A stretch of DNA of 64,000 nucleotides from Microcaldota archaeon (GCA_021798935.1 JAJZBL010000004.1:26872-90871); one strand, 5' to 3'; shown: positions 42,700 through 61,386, counted from the stretch's first letter. Notes: generated from the sequence alone by a model not told the origin. Numbers and translations are program-made.

Positions 42700-42860
42700 T
42701 AGTACACCTTAATTTATGAAACTGCCGCAACACATTCTGCACATTGGCGTATGGTGGATTGCTTTTATTGGATTATGCAAACAACACTTATATATGTTGC
42801 ATCAACCTCTTTTTAGGGGCTGCTGCCAAATCAAAGCAAAGTGCTTTATTCTATAAGCAC

Positions 42861-43979
42861 TCAAAGGCTGCTGAAGTAACCTTCTGCTAATTTCCTATCC
42901 TTTACATCTGGATTCGTATTGAAAGCATCTATTGCATTTCCGTATAATACATTTTCTGGATTAAGGTATGCTTCCAGCTCTTTCAGCGATTTTTCATTCT
43001 TTGAAAAGAATACCAAACTTGGACCGGTATCCGCAGTTACGTATACATCGTCGTGTGATTTCTTAAAATTGAAGAACTTGCTCAGGTTAGCCATGCTGCT
43101 ATTATTGTGAACGAAAAATCCAGATGACATCAGTATGCCATCAAGCCTGAACATGTCTTTCTCAGCCATTGAAAGAAGGTCTTCCAATGAAAATTGGCCT
43201 TCAAGCAGCGACTTTATCCGCTTATACTTTCCAAAAATCCACTCCCTGTAGAAATCAGATTGCACTGCAGCTGAATGTGCACTTATCGTTTCTATCAATG
43301 ATTTCTCAGGTATGGTGAAAAACTTTAGGCTTTTATAATCTACATCCATCCTCTCCGCATAGCATTCTTCATTGGCTATTCCAGGAAAAGATAGCCATAA
43401 TGATATGCCGCCTGCTGCAGATCTACTTCCAGATCCTGAAACAAGACGTGCATATCTAGAGACAAACGCATTATCTGCAACGGCTTCTTTTCCAAATACA
43501 CAGCCTAAAAGTGCTCTTGCAGTGGCAGAAGCAACTGCTGCAGATTCCCCCAAACCCTTGGCCTCTTTGTACTTGCGCTCCCTTTTCAGGTAGAACTGGA
43601 AGCTGCCTTCAATATGGTTCTCCTTTCGAAACAATTCTAAGGCCTTCTCCATCCTGGCTAAATATTTCTCATTTGTTATTCCATCCACCATTATTGAATC
43701 CTTTCCTGCTTTAGAATATCTGCAGAAAGCCTTTGCAACACTAAAATCCGTATTAATTGATATCGATGGGCTATAAGCTATATTTATAGATGGGTCGTAG
43801 TAGCCTAAGAACTTTTCCAGCCCTATTATTGGGCTTCCTTCTCCGTAGCTAATCTCCCCATCCTGTGGATCAGCCACATATTCTTTCGTAGGCAGGAACT
43901 TGCCATCTTTCTGGGCAAGCCTTTGGATATCCAATCCGGTTGCCTTAAGTTCCTGGGTCTCAGAATCAGTCAATTCCAT
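42861..43979 (-). CDS. mevalonate diphosphate decarboxylase-like protein; probable mevalonate 3,5-bisphosphate decarboxylase
   Basis: KGLGESAAVASATARALLG, RYARLVSGSGSRSAAGGISLWLSFPG, VYVTADTGPSLVFFS; GHMP/MDD family; third gene of the cassette. Confidence 0.78.
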   Translation of the reverse strand: MELTDSETQELKATGLDIQRLAQKDGKFLPTKEYVADPQDGEISYGEGSPIIGLEKFLGYYDPSINIAYSPSISINTDFSVAKAFCRYSKAGKDSIMVDGITNEKYLARMEKALELFRKENHIEGSFQFYLKRERKYKEAKGLGESAAVASATARALLGCVFGKEAVADNAFVSRYARLVSGSGSRSAAGGISLWLSFPGIANEECYAERMDVDYKSLKFFTIPEKSLIETISAHSAAVQSDFYREWIFGKYKRIKSLLEGQFSLEDLLSMAEKDMFRLDGILMSSGFFVHNNSSMANLSKFFNFKKSHDDVYVTADTGPSLVFFSKNEKSLKELEAYLNPENVLYGNAIDAFNTNPDVKDRKLAEGYFSSL

Positions 43980-44586
43980 AATAATCTCCTACAAATTTAA
44001 TTATGTCCTCTCTTGTCTTGCTGTAATCAAGGTTGTCAAATATCTTTATATTGTTCTTCTTGAGCAGATTAACTGAATAATCCATTATGGTTCTATAGAC
44101 ATCTAGTTGCGCTGACAATCTGTTACCTGGGGATTTTTTGTGTGTGTATAATTCGCGCTCGTTTAGTCTCTTGGAATGCAGATCCCAATCTGATATGTAA
44201 ATATATGCAGAGCAGGCATTGTACTTCTTCAATGTATCTATGAGCTCTTGGTTTAAGTAAAGGGATTCAACAATCACATTTTCTCCATTCTTATCAGCAC
44301 GCTCGATTACTGCATTTATGCCATTGCAGATAGGTTTCGATTGTTCAAGGTACCCTTTAATTATATTTTCCTCAGTCTTTTCCCCGAAGTTTTTCCAAGC
44401 TTCATATACACTTGTCATCAATATGCCTCCTTGGTTATCTGATGGTATTATTGGCCTTGCAAACTCTCTGAGGTAATCTCCAGATAACATTATATCTATG
44501 TTGTATTTCCTTGACAATGCACCTGATATGCTTGTCTTGCCAACTCCTGGCACCCCTCCTATAAATATTATCTTGTAATCTGCCAT
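43966..44586 (-). CDS. P-loop small-molecule kinase; probable mevalonate-3-phosphate 5-kinase
   Basis: IIFIGGVPGVGKTSISGALSRKYNIDIMLSGDYLREFARPI; sits between two MDD-like genes. Confidence 0.72.
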   Translation of the reverse strand: MADYKIIFIGGVPGVGKTSISGALSRKYNIDIMLSGDYLREFARPIIPSDNQGGILMTSVYEAWKNFGEKTEENIIKGYLEQSKPICNGINAVIERADKNGENVIVESLYLNQELIDTLKKYNACSAYIYISDWDLHSKRLNERELYTHKKSPGNRLSAQLDVYRTIMDYSVNLLKKNNIKIFDNLDYSKTREDIIKFVGDYYGID

Positions 44587-44593
44587 TATACCA

Positions 44594-45580
44594 TCATTGA
44601 TATTTAACTTCTGTAACTCTTGCAGATGGAGCTACCTTATACTCCACTGGGTTTTGGCCTCTTCTCTTTAGTTCCTTTAGAACATCCTCTGCATAAGGAT
44701 TCCAGGTAAATGCATTTATAACATTGCCCCCTCCTGCAGTCCAGTAGACAGGCAGACCTGACTGCCTTATTTCTTCTACATCTATAACAGCATTCATCAT
44801 CTCTTTCTTCCTTGCTCTTCCTCCAGAGCTTTCTATCAGATAATGGGCATTTGAACAGTTGTCTTCAGCATTTGAGAACACCATATCCCAGTCCTTGTGA
44901 AGTATGCCCAATTTTATCTTCGCTTCCCATTGAGGCATCATCTTAAGCCTGTATTCGTAGAACGGATTGCTACGGGTAAGCTGGAATATCTCCGCTGCAG
45001 ATAGCCTGCTATCATAATTAAATGTCATTGCAAATATGTGTATATCTTTTAGATCCTCTTCCGATGCAAGCTGTTTTGCATAAGGTGCACCAGGGCCCTC
45101 GACAACCAATGTATTTAAGCCCCCATATACTGCCCTTATAGCAGATTCTGAGATTTTGTTTGCAAGAAATGCAATCTTCTCCGTTTCATAATTTGTCCCA
45201 AACATCTTATCTAAAGCTACAACAAATGCTGCTGCACCTGCGTCACTGCTTCCTGCAAAAACATTATAATTGTCTGACTCCGCTTTTATCCCATAATTCT
45301 TGCCGCTTTCCTTTTGGAACTCCCTGAGCACTTCTGCCATCGATTGTATTCTCTCTAACTGAAGTGCCTTGCCATTTAGGATAAAGCTTTCTAACTTCCC
45401 TGAGTCTGTCCTGCTTATATGAGTTACTACCTTTGTCTTTCCTTCACTATCTGTAACAGAAAGCCCCATCGAATTATGTAGAGGCAACCTATTATCTCTT
45501 ACACTTGATACGAATATTATTGGTATCGTAGGATTCGCTTCTGCTTTTACCTCTGATATTGCCTTTTCATTCTTAACCAT
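44594..45580 (-). CDS. MDD-like protein; probable mevalonate-3-kinase
   Basis: LPLHNSMGLSVTDSEGK...NYNVFAGSSDAGAAAFVVAL...SESAIRAVYGGLNTLVV...WTAGGGNVINAF; resembles recalled T. acidophilum M3K (Ta1305) motifs PLHTSAG / SGSSDAGAAS / FGGL / VTGGSNV. Confidence 0.82.
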   Translation of the reverse strand: MVKNEKAISEVKAEANPTIPIIFVSSVRDNRLPLHNSMGLSVTDSEGKTKVVTHISRTDSGKLESFILNGKALQLERIQSMAEVLREFQKESGKNYGIKAESDNYNVFAGSSDAGAAAFVVALDKMFGTNYETEKIAFLANKISESAIRAVYGGLNTLVVEGPGAPYAKQLASEEDLKDIHIFAMTFNYDSRLSAAEIFQLTRSNPFYEYRLKMMPQWEAKIKLGILHKDWDMVFSNAEDNCSNAHYLIESSGGRARKKEMMNAVIDVEEIRQSGLPVYWTAGGGNVINAFTWNPYAEDVLKELKRRGQNPVEYKVAPSARVTEVKYQ

Positions 45581-45748
45581 AGTTGCACCTCAGAATTATT
45601 AATCTACATATTTTATTTTATATGAGACAATCATTATTTTGAATGTTCCTTTTTAACCCAATTCAGCGATATTGACAATTGTCTATTTGCAGGGAAACTA
45701 CCTTATTTTTACACAAAAAGCTTTTAAAGACAAACGAGTATTTTAATT

Positions 45749-53841: not shown

Positions 53842-55035
53842 TCAGGCTTTAAGAAGAGGTATCTCTATCTCCTCCTTGGAAAGCCCTCCGTGATGGCCCG
53901 ATGAACCTGAAATCCACTCTTTTCCTCCTGGATACTCTCTGCCTCCTGGATATTTGTAATATATTATGTTTTTCCGAGTGGCTATAGCTATGTGAGTTCC
54001 GAAACGATACCTTAAGGAATCGTCTACTTTCGTACTGCCGAATAAGCCAGATTTTATAGCATCGTTTGAATCATATAAGACAAAGTTCTTGCTGAACTCC
54101 TTATTGAATTCTTTTTCAAATTTCTCTTCTAAACCTTCAGATGAATCAAAGAACATGCTTCTGTCAGTGCCCCATGGCGGGTTTCTCAGATATTTTAGTG
54201 CACTGCTTCTCGCATCAAATCTGCTTATATCATCATGCTTTGAGGAAATCTGCCCATGGTCTGATGATATGATCAATTCCCATCCATTGTCCTTCAGCTT
54301 TGGCAGGAGCTTCTCCATTATCATCTCCAAGATGAATACAGTAATATGCAATACGCGCCTAGATTCCTTCGAGTATTCATGCTGCGCATGGTCTATATCC
54401 GGAATATAAGCATATACTAAGTTGTACTTATCAGATTCTGCAATATCAATCGATTGATATAGGAGATCATCAAATGATATGTAATCCGTATAATTGATAT
54501 TGTTGTATAAATAGGTTTGAGAGTTCTTTTGGTTGACCCGCTCAAACTGCATATACATGAAGTCTTTTCTTTTTCCCATCTTTAGCAGTGTATCTAAGCT
54601 TGGAAATAAGGAGTTGGCATCGGATTTGCCTGAAACTTCATCCAACAATGGGCTCCATGGAAGTGAAAGTATGTCCTTTATTGTCCCGTACTCTCGTATA
54701 GGAAGAGGGCTTCCTATTATTCCGTGTTCTGCAGGTGTTTTGCCTGAATCTATGCTTGTAAATGCTGTTGGGGTAAAGGATGGAAATACGGTGCTTATTT
54801 TGCTTATTTGCATTTTGGAAGGCAACTTCTTAAGCTGCTTGCTATTAGATATTGCTGATTTTAATAAATCCTGTCCAAAACCATCAATAAAAAGAAGAAA
54901 TCTTCTTTTCTTCTTTCCTCCTATGAGCTTTCCATGGCCCTCAGCCACCTCCTTTGCAAGCTCCATGTTGCTATTTCCGTAATCTGGGAAAGCAAATCCC
55001 TTGTCAATTAGGTCAGATTTTATGCTTTGCATCAA
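53842..55035 (-). CDS. alkaline phosphatase superfamily protein, tandem copy A
   Basis: FLLFIDGFGQDLLKSAIS, FPSFTPTAFTSIDSGKTPAEHGIIGSPLPIREYG, IPDIDHAQHEYS, LIISSDHGQ, SGHHGGLSKEE. Confidence 0.9.
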   Translation of the reverse strand: MMQSIKSDLIDKGFAFPDYGNSNMELAKEVAEGHGKLIGGKKKRRFLLFIDGFGQDLLKSAISNSKQLKKLPSKMQISKISTVFPSFTPTAFTSIDSGKTPAEHGIIGSPLPIREYGTIKDILSLPWSPLLDEVSGKSDANSLFPSLDTLLKMGKRKDFMYMQFERVNQKNSQTYLYNNINYTDYISFDDLLYQSIDIAESDKYNLVYAYIPDIDHAQHEYSKESRRVLHITVFILEMIMEKLLPKLKDNGWELIISSDHGQISSKHDDISRFDARSSALKYLRNPPWGTDRSMFFDSSEGLEEKFEKEFNKEFSKNFVLYDSNDAIKSGLFGSTKVDDSLRYRFGTHIAIATRKNIIYYKYPGGREYPGGKEWISGSSGHHGGLSKEEIEIPLLKA

Positions 55036-55047
55036 ATCACTACCGAT

Positions 55048-56220
55048 TCAGGCTTTGAGGAGAGGTATCTCCATCTCCTCCTTGGAAAGCCCTCCGTGGT
55101 GACCCGATAGCTCTGATGTCCATAATTTGCCTCCAGGATATCTGTAATGGAACAGGCTGTTGTGCTTTCCTATAGCTATGTGAGTTCCGAAACGATACCT
55201 TAAGGAATCGTCTACCTTCGTGCTGCCAAATAAGCCAGATTTTATCGCTTCATCTGAATCATATAAGACAAAGTTCTTGCTGAACTCCTTATTGAACTCT
55301 TTTTCAAATTTATCTTCTAAACCTTCAGCCGCATCAAATAACATCATTCTGTCCGTGCCCCAAGGGGAATTCCTAAGGTATTTTAGGATTTCACTCTTTG
55401 CATCAAGATCAATCGTATCTTCACGTTTTGAGGAAACTTGCCCATGGTCTGATGATATGATCAATTCCCATCCATTGTCCTTCAGCTTTGGCAGGAGCTT
55501 CTCCATCAACCTCTCAATCATCAATTGGGTTATTCCCAATCCAAGCCTGGATGTTTTCGTGTACATGTGCTGCGCATGGTCTATATCAGGAATATAAGCA
55601 TACACCGTATTATACTGGTCTGACTCCGCAATGTCTATGGATTGGAAAATAAAATCATCAAATGATATGTATCCGGTATAATTGATCTTGCTATATACAT
55701 ATGTCTGCTCATTCTTCCTTACTACCTGCTCAAACTGCATATATATAAAGTCTTTTTTGCTTCCCATTTTCAGCAATGTATCAGGAACTGGAAATATAGG
55801 TTTTGTTTCAGATTGGCCTGAAATTTCATCCAACGATGGGCTCCATGGAAGTGAAAACATATCTTTCATAGCTCCATACTCTCGTATAGGAAGGGGGCTT
55901 CCTATTATTCCGTGTTCTGCAGGTGTCTTGCCTGAATCTATGCTTGTGAATACGCTAGGAGTAAAAGAAGGGAATACAGTACTTATTTTTTCTATCTGCA
56001 TCTCTGATGATAATTTCTTAAGCTGCTTGCTATTGGATATTGCAGATTTCAATAAGTCGTATCCAAGGCCATCCATAAATATAAGGAATCTCCTTTTTTT
56101 CTTTCCTCCTATGAGCTTTCCATGGCCCTCAGCTACCTCCTTTGCAAGCTCCATGTTGCTATTCTCATAATCAGGAAAAGCAAATCCCTTGTCAATTAGG
56201 TCAGATTTTATGCCATTCAT
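55048..56220 (-). CDS. alkaline phosphatase superfamily protein, tandem copy B
   Basis: Near-identical blocks to copy A: IPDIDHAQHMYT, LIISSDHGQ, SGHHGGLSKEEMEIPLLKA. Confidence 0.9.
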   Translation of the reverse strand: MNGIKSDLIDKGFAFPDYENSNMELAKEVAEGHGKLIGGKKKRRFLIFMDGLGYDLLKSAISNSKQLKKLSSEMQIEKISTVFPSFTPSVFTSIDSGKTPAEHGIIGSPLPIREYGAMKDMFSLPWSPSLDEISGQSETKPIFPVPDTLLKMGSKKDFIYMQFEQVVRKNEQTYVYSKINYTGYISFDDFIFQSIDIAESDQYNTVYAYIPDIDHAQHMYTKTSRLGLGITQLMIERLMEKLLPKLKDNGWELIISSDHGQVSSKREDTIDLDAKSEILKYLRNSPWGTDRMMLFDAAEGLEDKFEKEFNKEFSKNFVLYDSDEAIKSGLFGSTKVDDSLRYRFGTHIAIGKHNSLFHYRYPGGKLWTSELSGHHGGLSKEEMEIPLLKA

Positions 56221-56637: not shown

Positions 56638-58008
56638 TCAATGGGAAGGAGCTATGTAGAAATCGATTGGCCTTCCTAAAGCCCCTTCTGCTGCCTCTTC
56701 CAATCCTTCGCTCATCGTTGGGTGTGGATGTATGGTGTCAGCTATATCCTCTAGCATAGCGCTCATCTCTATACCAAGTGTGGCTTCCCCAATTGCAACA
56801 TCTGCATTTTCCCCTACTATCCCGACGCCTTTCACCACGCCGTTTTCATCGTATGCTATCTTGACAAATCCTTCAGTAGCATCATCGGCTATAGCCCTTC
56901 CTGACGCTGAAAATGGGAATTTAACTGTCTTTATTCCATCACCTGAAAGCTTCCCTACGATTGCAATCTCTGGATCTGATAGTATAGTTTCCGGAATTGC
57001 CACGTTATCGAACTCAGAGTTCAATCCTGATGCTGATTCCCCTGCTATTACTCCTTGCCTGAGAGCTTTTGTAGCTGACATCGGCTGCCCTACTATGTCT
57101 CCTGAAGCATAGATATTTGGATCGGTGGTCTGCAGATGGCTGTCAACTTTTATGAAGCCTTTTTCATTAAGCTGCACCTTTGTATTCTCTAACCCCAATC
57201 CCTCTGTGTAAGGCACACGTTCAGGAGAAAGTGCAATTATATCCGCTGTGATCTCCTTTCCGCTCTCTAATGTTATCTTTCCATCGGAGTAGGATTTTAC
57301 AGGATCTTTTTCGTAAACTTCTACACCAAGATCAGCAAGCTTCTTCTTTGGTATTGCAACGAGATCCTGGTCAAGCCTTGAGAAGATTCCTTTTTCAGAT
57401 ATTACATATACCTTAGATCCCAACTTTGCAAACATAGAGCTGAATTCTATAGCAGCATAATCATCATTGACTATTACAATGCTCTTTGGTATATAATCCA
57501 AGGAAAGGGTTGACTTGTGGTCAAGCACCTTCACTCCGTCTATCTTGAATTTTTCAGGTTGTGCAAGCTTGGTGCCTGTAGATATTATCGCTTTCTTGAA
57601 GTTTAAGGTAACTCCATCGCTAAGCTGCAATGAATTAGAGGAAAGGAAAGAACCCATCGCATTGAACACTTCAATTCCGTGCAGCTTGCACAATGACTCT
57701 ACTCCTGATGACAGCTTCTTTGAAACATTCATCCTGTATTCGTGAGCTTTCTTGAAGTCAATCTGTGGTGTGCCTGTTATACCCAAATCCTTGTTGCCCT
57801 TGGCATACTGAAATTTATTTGCAATATTAATTAATGTTGCAGTTGGTATGCAAGTATAGTTTAGGCAGCTGCCTCCTAACTTGTCCGCTTCTACTAAGGC
57901 AACACTCTTTCCCAACTCTGATGCCCTTATCGCGGCAGTATACCCTCCAGCTCCCCCTCCTATCACTACTACATCAACTTCTTCAGGTAAAGATCCTACT
58001 ACTCCCAT
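56638..58008 (-). CDS. lpdA: dihydrolipoyl dehydrogenase (E3)
   Basis: VVVIGGGAGGYTAAIRASELGKSVALVEADKLGGSCLNYTCIPT; Rossmann motif, redox Cys pair, HPHPTMSE. Confidence 0.95.
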   Translation of the reverse strand: MGVVGSLPEEVDVVVIGGGAGGYTAAIRASELGKSVALVEADKLGGSCLNYTCIPTATLINIANKFQYAKGNKDLGITGTPQIDFKKAHEYRMNVSKKLSSGVESLCKLHGIEVFNAMGSFLSSNSLQLSDGVTLNFKKAIISTGTKLAQPEKFKIDGVKVLDHKSTLSLDYIPKSIVIVNDDYAAIEFSSMFAKLGSKVYVISEKGIFSRLDQDLVAIPKKKLADLGVEVYEKDPVKSYSDGKITLESGKEITADIIALSPERVPYTEGLGLENTKVQLNEKGFIKVDSHLQTTDPNIYASGDIVGQPMSATKALRQGVIAGESASGLNSEFDNVAIPETILSDPEIAIVGKLSGDGIKTVKFPFSASGRAIADDATEGFVKIAYDENGVVKGVGIVGENADVAIGEATLGIEMSAMLEDIADTIHPHPTMSEGLEEAAEGALGRPIDFYIAPSH

Positions 58009-58026
58009 AGTTACACCAAATATAAA

Positions 58027-59316
58027 TTAATCCCCCATTTCAAGGAACTCTGGATCCTCTATATAACTTTTCAGTTCGTTCCCAAACTTAACCGCCTCTG
58101 CCCCATCAACTACTCTGTGGTCGAATGTGAGCGTGAACGGAAGTATCTTCCTTATCTCTACCTTCCCATCAACTGCAACTGGCATATCTTTCATCATGCT
58201 GAAAGCCAGTATTGCAACATCTGGGGGGTTTATCATCGGTATACCGATGAATCCACCGCCCAAGCTGCCTGCATTCGTTATGGTAAATGAGGAATCCTTC
58301 ATATCATCCAATGTTATCGTATTTGCATAAAGCTTGTCCCTAAGGTCGGCAAGATCTCTTGCTATCTGCACTATGCTCTTCTTGTCTGCTTCCTTGACCA
58401 CTATAACTTTCAATCCATCTTTTGTCTCTGCACCAAGGCCTATATTGTAATAGTGCTTTACCAATATCTCCCTGTTTACTGGATCATAGCTTGCATTGAA
58501 ATGGGGATTATCCTTCAATGCTGCTACTGTAGCTTTTATCAGTATAGGAAGGAAGGTCAGCTTTATGTTAAACTGCTTCATGAACTTGTCCTTTGACTCA
58601 GAGACTATCCTATTTAACTCCGTCGCATCTATAAGATCTATATGCGAAGCTCTTGGTATAGTCCATGATGCTTCCATGTTCTTCGCAATTGCCTTCCTCA
58701 CTGGTGAGAGTGGCACATGCTCGATTTCTTCTGCATGCTTTTCTGCAAGGATCTCAGGATGCCTTGGCTTCTTCAGGACATCCGATGCTTCCTTGGCAGC
58801 ATCTCTTACATCAACTTCCATTATCCTTCCGTTAGGCCCTGTTCCCTTTATCTTTGTAAGGTCAACTTTCAGCTGCTCAGCCAATTTCCTTACAAATGGA
58901 GTAGTCAATATTTCAGCATGTGCTTCGCCTTCATGTGGTGCTGCAGGCTTGCTCTCTGCTTGTGGCTTTGGAGCTGCTTCCGGAACACTTGGCTCATTAG
59001 GCTTGCTTGGTGCCGCTGCTGCCTTTGGTGCATTTGGCTGCGCTGCAGCTGAACTTGGTATGTTCTTCAGCTCATCAGGTGTGCCAACGTATGCAAGTAT
59101 ATCACCCACTTTTATATCCGTATTTTCCTTTGCAACAACCTTTACCGTGCCTCCTTTTATAGATGGTATGTTTACAACAGCTTTGTCTGTTTCCACCTGC
59201 ATCAGGGTCTGGTCCTCCTTTACCTGATCTCCATCTTTTACCAATATCTTCTGGACATGCCCTTCGGTTATGCCCTCTCCTACATCTGCAAATTTGACTA
59301 TCTCCATTTTAATCAC
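58027..59316 (-). CDS. dihydrolipoamide acyltransferase (E2)
   Basis: Lipoyl domain VETDKAVVNIP, Ala/Pro linker, peripheral subunit-binding domain, catalytic LPFTLTFDHRVVDGAEAVKF. Confidence 0.95.
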   Translation of the reverse strand: MIKMEIVKFADVGEGITEGHVQKILVKDGDQVKEDQTLMQVETDKAVVNIPSIKGGTVKVVAKENTDIKVGDILAYVGTPDELKNIPSSAAAQPNAPKAAAAPSKPNEPSVPEAAPKPQAESKPAAPHEGEAHAEILTTPFVRKLAEQLKVDLTKIKGTGPNGRIMEVDVRDAAKEASDVLKKPRHPEILAEKHAEEIEHVPLSPVRKAIAKNMEASWTIPRASHIDLIDATELNRIVSESKDKFMKQFNIKLTFLPILIKATVAALKDNPHFNASYDPVNREILVKHYYNIGLGAETKDGLKVIVVKEADKKSIVQIARDLADLRDKLYANTITLDDMKDSSFTITNAGSLGGGFIGIPMINPPDVAILAFSMMKDMPVAVDGKVEIRKILPFTLTFDHRVVDGAEAVKFGNELKSYIEDPEFLEMGD

Positions 59317-59325
59317 TTAAAAAAT

Positions 59326-60300
59326 TTATGCTGAAAGCAAACTATCAATTGCTTGTGAAACTCTCTTCTCATTTGGAATCCAGTAGTTTTCATATCCTGC
59401 CATAGGTATAGGTGTATGGAATCCTGCTACACGAAGTATAGGTGCTTTAAGGTCAAACATTGCCTTTTCCGCTATCAATGCTGATACTTCGGCACCAACG
59501 CTGAATGACTTCTGGTCCTCATGTACTATCAGTGCTTTGCCTGTCCTCTTGACACTGTCAAGTATAGTCTTTTCATCTAATGGGTTTATCGTCCTTAAAT
59601 CTATCACATCAGCGGATACATTCTTGTCCTTCACTGCATTCTGCACTACTGGCGACATCGTTCCATAGGTTATTATGGTCATGTCATCCCCGTGGTTTAC
59701 TACGTTTGCCTTTCCAATTGGCACTTCATATCTGTCTTCCGGTATCTCCTGCTTGAACATCCTGTAAAGCTTTGTAGGCTCAATAAATATTACAGGATCA
59801 TGAAGATGGGAAGCTGCAATAAGAAGGCCTTTTGCATCATATGGTGTTGATGATTCTATTACAACCAAGGAACCGATATGAGAGAATATTGCCTCTGGGC
59901 TTTCTGAATGTATCTCAGGTCCTCCCACTCCTCCGCTTGCAGGAAATCTTATAACCATAGGTATAGGCATCTTTGATCTTGTCCTTGTCCTAAACCTTGC
60001 TGCATGATGCATTATCTGTGAGAATGCCTGATATGAAAATCCTCCAAATTGTATTTCAGGGAATGGATGCAATCCACCCAATGCCATCCCAATTGCTGTC
60101 CCTATTATTGAGTTCTCTGCCAGAGGTGTGTTCATTACTCTTGTAGGGCCGTACTTGTCTAACAGCCCATCAGTTACTCTGAATACTCCTCCGTCCTTTG
60201 CTACATCCTCTCCCATTATTACTATATCCTCGTTTTCAGCGAGGCAAAGATCTAATGCATTATTCAGCGCAGAAATCATATTTGCCATCATTTTATCCAC
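59326..60300 (-). CDS. 2-oxoacid dehydrogenase E1 beta subunit
   Basis: IVIMGEDVAKDGGVFRVTDGLLDKYGPTRVMNTPLAENSIIGTAIGMALGGLHPFPEIQFGGF. Confidence 0.95.
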   Translation of the reverse strand: MDKMMANMISALNNALDLCLAENEDIVIMGEDVAKDGGVFRVTDGLLDKYGPTRVMNTPLAENSIIGTAIGMALGGLHPFPEIQFGGFSYQAFSQIMHHAARFRTRTRSKMPIPMVIRFPASGGVGGPEIHSESPEAIFSHIGSLVVIESSTPYDAKGLLIAASHLHDPVIFIEPTKLYRMFKQEIPEDRYEVPIGKANVVNHGDDMTIITYGTMSPVVQNAVKDKNVSADVIDLRTINPLDEKTILDSVKRTGKALIVHEDQKSFSVGAEVSALIAEKAMFDLKAPILRVAGFHTPIPMAGYENYWIPNEKRVSQAIDSLLSA

Positions 60301-60312
60301 CTATTAAAACAT

Positions 60313-61386
60313 TCACTGCCAGAAATTATTCTTTACCGCCTCATCCTCCTCTTCTTTCAATGAATCCGGCATAAATCCAAATGCAGTCTCAAAGATTGAT
60401 TTTGGATCTGGCTTGAACTCCTTAATCTTTTCCATCGCGTCATCAAGAAGCTTGTTGTGGTCTTCTTTCATCTTCGCTTCCATATCATCATTCCAAAGCT
60501 TTTTGGAAACTAAGTACTTCTTCATCCTTATAAGAGGGTCTTTTGGCTTCCATGGATCAACTTCGGATTCGGGCCTGTACTTTGTAGGATCATCTGCTGT
60601 TGTGTGCATTCCCATCCTATATGTCAATGCCTCTATTATGTATGGCCTTCCTCCCTTCTTTATGCTATCTATCGCATCCTTTGTTGCCTTGTATACTGCA
60701 AGGACATCATTCCCATCAACCTGTATTGCGTCCGCTCCAACTGCAAATGCCTTCTGCGCAAGGGTTTCCGCAGCTGTCTGCTGGGCTCTTGGCACAGATA
60801 TTGCCCATTCATTATCTTCTATTATTGTTACAAGAGGAACTTTGTTGACTCCTGCAAAATTCATTCCTTCATAAAAATCGCCTTCGGATGTTCCGCCGTC
60901 TCCTACATAGGTTAATGCTACATTAGGCTTCTTCTTATACTTCAAGGAGAATGCAACTCCTGCAGCATGAGGAATTCCTGCTCCCACTGGTGCTATTTCA
61001 GGTCCTGAATTGTTGACAGCCCCCAGATTAAATCCTTCTTCATAACCTTTGAAGTATAGGAATATTGAATATATTGATACTCCTTTTATGATAAGTGAAA
61101 GATGCTGCCTGAATGTAGGCAATAGCCAATCGTCTTTTGTAAGCGCATATGCACTTCCTGCCTGTGTCGCTTCTTCTCCATAAATAGGAACTATTGTTGG
61201 CATAAGGCCTGCTCTCTGCAATGCCACAAGCTTGTCGCTCATTTCCCTTCCCAAGCTCATATACTTGTATAATTCAATGAGATCTTTGTCAGCAAGATCC
61301 TTTGGATATAGATTTTTGTCAATATTTCCATTCTCATCCATAACTTGGATGTACTTAACAGAGCCATTAAAAACAGTTTTCTCCAT
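60313..61386 (-). CDS. 2-oxoacid dehydrogenase E1 alpha subunit
   Basis: ThDP motif GDGGTSEGDFYEGMNFAGVNKVPLVTIIEDNEWAIS. Confidence 0.95.
   Translation of the reverse strand: MEKTVFNGSVKYIQVMDENGNIDKNLYPKDLADKDLIELYKYMSLGREMSDKLVALQRAGLMPTIVPIYGEEATQAGSAYALTKDDWLLPTFRQHLSLIIKGVSIYSIFLYFKGYEEGFNLGAVNNSGPEIAPVGAGIPHAAGVAFSLKYKKKPNVALTYVGDGGTSEGDFYEGMNFAGVNKVPLVTIIEDNEWAISVPRAQQTAAETLAQKAFAVGADAIQVDGNDVLAVYKATKDAIDSIKKGGRPYIIEALTYRMGMHTTADDPTKYRPESEVDPWKPKDPLIRMKKYLVSKKLWNDDMEAKMKEDHNKLLDDAMEKIKEFKPDPKSIFETAFGFMPDSLKEEEDEAVKNNFWQ

Follow-up and report, generated by a model that had tools for sequence, protein, structure and literature searches.

Three adjoining genes on the minus strand of a Microcaldota archaeon (GCA_021798935.1, JAJZBL010000004.1:26872-90871; the whole 64,000 nt stretch analysed is referred to here as the window) raise two questions: whether they encode the acid-adapted mevalonate route of Thermoplasmatales, which supplies the precursors of membrane lipids, and whether they reached this lineage together. 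The reference system is the Thermoplasma-type (variant III) pathway of Thermoplasmatales, which comprises the mevalonate-3-kinase (M3K) Ta1305, the M3P5K Ta0762, the mevalonate-3,5-bisphosphate decarboxylase (MBD) Ta0893, together with PtoMBD (7T71), and the IPK Ta0103. Horizontal acquisition of MBD has been described for 16.3 % of Micrarchaeota (PMC8407392), and M3K, M3P5K and MBD are described as acquired from Thermoplasmatales by the ancestors of Candidatus Micrarchaeum harzensis and some other Micrarchaeota (PMC8975820). The core finding, that Micrarchaeota carry the three genes, is already known and was published in 2021–2022, as was the proposal that the genes came from Thermoplasmatales. 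New here are the predicted complete upstream pathway in Mancarchaeum, a discontinuity of M3K, an apparent second MBD acquisition in genus g24 and candidate hybrid operons; the open-licence literature searched yielded no description of the M3K discontinuity or of the operon order. The operon very probably encodes the three diagnostic Thermoplasma-type mevalonate enzymes in a very small, acidophilic, Mancarchaeum-like acid-mine micrarchaeon, and is very probably mosaic in origin.

Organization of the operon

An earlier note on this DNA, made from the sequence alone, placed three minus-strand genes between 45580 and 42861, and they are found at exactly those positions (Table 1). Of the spacing it gave, the 14 nt overlap of genes 2 and 3 stands, whereas the 8 nt gap between genes 1 and 2 is the difference between coordinates, with 7 bases intervening. 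The genes follow one another in the order of the reactions, as the note had proposed and as the family assignments below support.

The region ahead of gene 1, with the TATA-box-like element TATAAAATAAAATA and the motif GAGGTG, is probably the promoter region of the operon. A scan for sigma-70-type promoters, the wrong promoter type for archaea, returned a count no higher than in shuffled sequences. A terminator consensus scan gave 6 matches against 2.2 expected in shuffles, which speaks weakly for the hairpin at the MBD stop codon. The GC content of the operon is 40.1 % and that of the window 35.6 %; this places the operon at the 92nd percentile among segments of equal length and is not decisive as evidence of transfer.

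The window genome (857 kb, 10 contigs, ~96 % complete) belongs to a congener of Candidatus Mancarchaeum acidiphilum Mia14, the genome of which is circular and 952,257 bp long (PMC5498576). Identities of 84 % for MBD and 94 % for M3K indicate a different species of the same genus. In Mia14 the operon, with the same UvrD-like gene downstream, is part of a closed chromosome (a single contig), and it is therefore no binning artefact. Likewise, three highly significant family matches and the recurrence of the gene order in another five micrarchaeal genomes, which belong to two genera, argue that the arrangement is not due to chance.

Table 1. Coordinates of the operon, its candidate signals and the operons of relatives that carry a DMD/PMD-like decarboxylase
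Feature	Position	Strand	Remarks
M3K homologue, micrarchaeal type (gene 1)	44594..45580	minus	328 aa, ATG start
M3P5K, P-loop kinase, GGVPGVGKTS (gene 2)	43966..44586	minus	206 aa, ATG start
MBD (gene 3)	42861..43979	minus	372 aa, ATG start
TATA-box-like element TATAAAATAAAATA	45609..45622	minus	~30-42 nt 5′ of the M3K start codon, by sequence reading
Possible ribosome-binding site GAGGTG	45591-45586	minus	ahead of M3K, by sequence reading
Possible terminator, hairpin with weak T-rich tail	42839..42862	minus	at the MBD stop codon
M3K-M3P5K-DMD/PMD-like operon, G234	L151 721-3429		MVK-like gene next
M3K-M3P5K-DMD/PMD-like operon, G235	L152 87-2759		MVK-like gene next probable, from near-identity of the locus; stretch ends there
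M3K-M3P5K-DMD/PMD-like operon, G247	L153 2549-6132		MVK-like gene next; TIGR01240 297 bits
M3K-M3P5K-DMD/PMD-like operon, G233	L154 4866-7640		probable IPK next; TIGR01240 290 bits

Assignment of the three genes

The resemblance of gene 1 to M3K, suggested earlier from its motifs, is borne out by several lines of comparison. Its best NCBIfam model is M3K (123.6 bits, E 8e-36); the curated cut-off of 440 bits is not reached, and is also missed by 18 of the 22 Thermoplasmata M3K homologues found, which score 329–435 bits. The Pfam M3K_C domain falls slightly short (25.0, threshold 27), and the top PDB sequence match is TaM3K 4rkp (Ta1305; E 2.6e-15). All of the motifs named in the note, PLHNSMG, FAGSSDAGAAAF, YGGL and TAGGGNV, are present. 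In the literature M3K is recognized by absence of the catalytic Asp of decarboxylases (PMC9254496, PMC5177888); in the alignment gene 1 is without this residue, reading (YW)TAGGGNV where DMD/PMD have TFDAGPN, and by this measure it therefore falls with M3K. The ATP loop is retained as SSDAG(AAA), with an SSD loop two residues shorter, as in Thermoplasmata M3Ks.

Four motifs, P-x-H-x-[ST]-x-G, SSD, SES-x-x-R and [AT]GG, are common to gene 1 and all 19 Thermoplasmata M3Ks and occur in no DMD/PMD or MBD compared. Gene 1 has SESAIR, and the invariant Glu of SES is G or A in DMD/PMD and MBD. The basic loop has a conserved Arg, offset in the alignment by one residue from the Thermoplasmata Arg. In the tree the clade of gene 1 is sister to the 19 Thermoplasmata M3Ks and apart from DMD/PMD and MBD (100/99), at a node that joins long branches. 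The AlphaFold model of gene 1 (pLDDT 86) has the MVD/M3K fold. A Foldseek structure search was discarded as a means of telling M3K from MDD, TM-scores being 0.81–0.84 for both. The best reading of gene 1 is M3K, with putative ATP-dependent phosphorylation of mevalonate at the 3-position.

Gene 2 had been described as a P-loop small-molecule kinase and is more closely specified by NCBIfam NF008996 (M3P5K), whose cut-off of 250 bits it passes with 253.8; its identity to Thermoplasmata homologues is 44–53 %. Gene 3 had been taken for MBD, and model rank, PDB match and diagnostic residues agree. Its best NCBIfam model is NF040847 (bisphosphomevalonate decarboxylase) with 402.7 bits, the next family scoring 65.9 and the cut-off of 560 not being reached; the best PDB match is PtoMBD 7T71 (E 8e-75), and in the tree gene 3 groups with Thermoplasmata MBDs. 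MBD is characterized by retention of the catalytic Asp, Lys and Arg and loss of ATP-binding residues (PMC5177888, PMC9254496). K56, R186 and D317, the last equivalent to Asp309 of PtoMBD, are invariant in the MBD alignment, and KGLGESAAV replaces the DMD/PMD-type ATP-loop motif AGxASSAS, so that gene 3 fits the published description of MBD.

Completeness of the pathway

By these assignments M3K would phosphorylate mevalonate at the 3-OH, M3P5K would add a 5-phosphate to mevalonate-3-phosphate, and MBD would remove the 3-phosphate and CO2 without ATP to give isopentenyl phosphate, which IPK, encoded elsewhere in the genome, would convert to IPP. IPK is required because MBD yields isopentenyl phosphate and not IPP; a gene for it is present (C5:23217-23912; NF040647, 174.9 bits, above the cut-off of 120), which supports the Thermoplasma-type reading. 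The window genome also carries an HMGS–thiolase cluster, after which comes a gene judged by eye to be DUF35-like; HMGS was identified by model rank and neighbourhood, its score lying under both its cut-offs. HMGR is located on a 9 kb contig. Contamination was ruled out as the source of this contig by 85 % identity to the HMGR of Mia14 and by synteny of the neighbouring genes with the closed Mia14 chromosome. IDI-2 is present with a score above cut-off. With thiolase, HMGS and HMGR encoded upstream and IDI-2 downstream, the genome formally covers every step from acetyl-CoA to IPP/DMAPP.

The reading of the earlier note depended on there being no complete classical pathway elsewhere; the genome search for classical mevalonate-5-kinase, PMK and IPK found IPK and no classical pathway. 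Neither mevalonate-5-kinase nor PMK was found in the window genome, where the sole other GHMP kinase (C5) was rejected as a mevalonate kinase, being HddA-like (149.8 bits, against 70.8 for MVK). In the 96 % complete assembly no AcnX was found and, with the M3K model, no DMD/PMD; DMD is taken to be absent because the window gene is the single match to that model in the genome. The idea that another part of the genome encodes a classical (MVK/PMK/DMD) or an archaea-type (AcnX) route was discarded, no genes for either having been found. Given the gene families, the presence of IPK and upstream genes and the failure to find alternatives, a complete Thermoplasma-type mevalonate pathway is the best reading of the window genome. 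We infer enzyme activities, co-transcription and flux from gene content and order, families, diagnostic residues, co-occurrence and phylogeny; a literature search found no biochemistry on micrarchaeal enzymes of this mevalonate route.

The predicted pathway is like that of Thermoplasmatales in having the same three enzyme families in series, in the presence of IPK, in that no mevalonate-5-kinase was found, and in an MBD that retains the catalytic Asp, Lys and Arg. It is unlike it in gene arrangement, the window genes being contiguous and ordered by reaction, while the Thermoplasmata loci sampled have at most an M3P5K–MBD pair, with M3K elsewhere, and in its M3K, which is only ~25 % identical. 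All three genes occur in M. harzensis (A_DKE) too, arranged in the order seen here, with an M3K 73 % identical; HMGR, however, is present in the window genome and Mia14 and reported missing from M. harzensis (PMC8975820), in whose genome none was found here either. With dual-function DMD/PMD the window enzymes share the GHMP fold and the ancestry common to M3K and MBD, but the catalytic Asp is missing from the window M3K, and the DMD/PMD-type ATP loop from the window MBD. Thus a symbiotic-type micrarchaeon would, unlike M. harzensis, apparently be able to make its own IPP from acetyl-CoA, which bears on the need of such archaea to import host lipids.

Contig C5 also encodes a 599 aa protein (L090, 70-1866; Mia14 homologue L089) that over its first ~320 residues looks like an HMG-CoA synthase of the bacterial/eukaryotic type. 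This N-terminal part scores 102 bits against TIGR01835 (cut-off 360) and is additional to the archaeal HMGS.

Distribution within the phylum

Micrarchaeal-type M3K was detected in 15 of 301 genomes of the phylum at 492–619 bits, the next best match, at 75 bits, being DMD/PMD-like. M3P5K is present in all 15 (Fisher p=1.7e-23) and MBD in 11 (p=1.5e-13), with genomes treated as independent in both tests though they are related. In 10 of the 15 the M3K search gave no DMD-like match. Genera g1 and g26 retain the order M3K–M3P5K–MBD, with flanking genes that differ between the two, and clusters in other genera are rearranged. One further genome of the window's genus (G259, a MAG 84 % complete) has HMGR and a DMD-like gene (contigs C7 and C29) and none of the three cassette genes; a pathway swap inside one genus is possible.

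Origin of the genes

Median identities of the window proteins to Thermoplasmata are 25 % for M3K, 49 % for M3P5K and 39 % for MBD. For the latter two these values are about equal to the identities within Thermoplasmata (50 and 41 %, respectively). For M3K, identity is 57 % among micrarchaea, 44 % among Thermoplasmata and 25 % between the groups. Among micrarchaea M3K evolves more slowly than the other two, the window protein being 94, 73 and 50 % identical to those of Mia14, M. harzensis and YP4.bin78, compared with 88, 64 and 46 % for M3P5K and 84, 51 and 42 % for MBD; the gap to Thermoplasmata is therefore not explained by a generally fast rate. A branch sets off each of the two M3K clades (100/100 and 97/99) in a tree that carries a long-branch warning and in which M3K was sampled from micrarchaea and Thermoplasmata; homologues are also known from Asgard archaea, Aenigmatarchaeota and Altiarchaeota (PMC11052028). 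A profile of micrarchaeal M3K searched against 390 Thermoplasmatota genomes gave no match above 132 bits, and the type was not found there.

The MBD tree is interleaved: the MBD of genus g24 (L065, L066) is nested with that of E-plasma-like Thermoplasmatales, and monophyly of the micrarchaeal MBDs is rejected (AU p 2.6e-71). This points to an apparent second, separate acquisition of MBD in g24. In two MAGs of that genus (loci L033/L065 and L034/L066) MBD lies near contig ends, and the M3K–M3P5K genes (L155, G255) are of micrarchaeal type. The M3P5K tree separates micrarchaeal and Thermoplasmata groups weakly (77/76). Among named Thermoplasmata MBD loci, 28 in all, M3P5K adjoins MBD at 19, and M3K lies within the fetched flank of none.

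The earlier note had inferred that a contiguous cassette would allow horizontal exchange with Thermoplasmatales. Exchange as a unit is not supported, in view of the 28 loci without M3K in the fetched flank, the deep, separate M3K clade and the lack of a counterpart in the 390 genomes. The discontinuity of M3K, the interleaving of MBD and the weak split of M3P5K indicate a mosaic that was not exchanged as a unit. M3P5K and MBD would then belong to a pool that micrarchaea and Thermoplasmatales have in common, and M3K would represent a separate micrarchaeal branch that split before the diversification of all sampled Thermoplasmata M3Ks. The M3K data do not fit the published derivation of all three genes from Thermoplasmatales (PMC8975820), and call that origin into question. 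The pathway has been proposed to be an acid adaptation, as the note had mentioned; non-acidic lineages carry the Thermoplasma-type genes (PMC11052028), which weakens a purely acid-driven story.

Alternative explanations

The reading given in the earlier note, and in PMC8975820 for the three genes, is that they were taken up together, in a single cassette, from a host among the Thermoplasmatales, in which case M3K must have diverged fast afterwards. MBD and M3P5K are indeed close to Thermoplasmatales homologues, and hosts and symbionts have habitats in common (PMC5498576, PMC8975820). However, M3K evolves more slowly than its two neighbours among micrarchaea yet is far more distant from Thermoplasmata (25 %), the stems of the two M3K clades are 1.66 and 1.31 changes per site long, and no three-gene cluster occurs at the 28 Thermoplasmata MBD loci; whole-cassette transfer thus appears unlikely. 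Somewhat less probable again is a remnant cassette, either non-functional or serving to scavenge, with its genes decaying in an organism supplied with lipids or mevalonate by its host. The precedent would be M. harzensis, which is without HMGR and G1PDH and thought to use host lipids (PMC8975820), but all three reading frames are intact and their conservation extends across two genera, the M3Ks of the two Mancarchaeum species are 94 % identical, and the window genome encodes HMGR, HMGS, thiolase, IPK and IDI-2.

It is also conceivable, and we give this the smallest chance, that gene 1 is a kinase of another substrate (for example a mevalonate-5-phosphate 3-kinase, or one acting on a non-mevalonate hydroxyacid), with an order of steps that is not that of Thermoplasma. 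The motifs confined to M3K, including the invariant Glu of SES (G/A in DMD/PMD and MBD), the conserved basic-loop Arg and strict co-occurrence with M3P5K, the known substrate of which is mevalonate-3-phosphate, all argue for M3K, against the low identity of gene 1 to TaM3K, its score far under the M3K cut-off, and the relatives in which M3K–M3P5K adjoins a DMD/PMD-like gene (four) or also an MVK-like gene (two, probably three).

Decarboxylases of related operons

In these four relatives (G234, G235, G247 and G233; Table 1) the gene after M3K–M3P5K encodes a DMD/PMD-like decarboxylase, not MBD. MBD was not found in the four genomes, three of which are 72–76 % complete. The PMD of R. castenholzii decarboxylates mevalonate-3,5-bisphosphate with ADP, and at low pH its kinase step alone is lost (PMC5177888); operons of the M3K–M3P5K–DMD/PMD type could therefore be workable hybrids, and those observed may be such hybrids. 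MAGs that mix Thermoplasma-type and eukaryote-type genes have been noted before (PMC11052028).

Tentatively, and with somewhat more doubt than confidence, the Micrarchaeales may be viewed as having a stable core of an old, separately inherited M3K plus M3P5K, combined with an interchangeable decarboxylase slot. The slot would hold an MBD belonging to the micrarchaeal clade, an MBD acquired separately from E-plasma-like Thermoplasmatales (g24), or a DMD/PMD (g15, g16 and g21); the last would be dual-function enzymes running their second half-reaction only. If true, the g15, g16 and g21 operons would show, in living organisms, the intermediate from which the pathway has been proposed to arise, a dual-function decarboxylase freed from its kinase step (PMC5177888), and that proposal could be tested with real enzymes.

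A different arrangement is seen in FK5.bin71 (G207; L031 5154-9484), in which M3P5K, MBD, a 253 aa ORF, a DMD-like gene and a probable IPK form a cluster. The DMD-like protein has Gly at the expected position of the catalytic Asp (TVGAGPN). Micrarchaeal-type M3K was not found in this genome in the scan of 301.

Other genes in the window

The segment 46615-50769 (plus strand) contains three tandem paralogous ORFs of 430, 428 and 434 aa with TTG starts and HExxH-like metalloprotease motifs, the second and third being nearly identical at the N-terminus. Two tandem, closely similar phosphodiesterase/alkaline-phosphatase-like ORFs (397 and 390 aa, by eye) occupy 53842-56220 on the minus strand. On the same strand, 56638-61386 holds what by eye is a pyruvate/2-oxoacid dehydrogenase-like cluster (E1 alpha, E1 beta, E2 and E3), in a very small archaeal genome.
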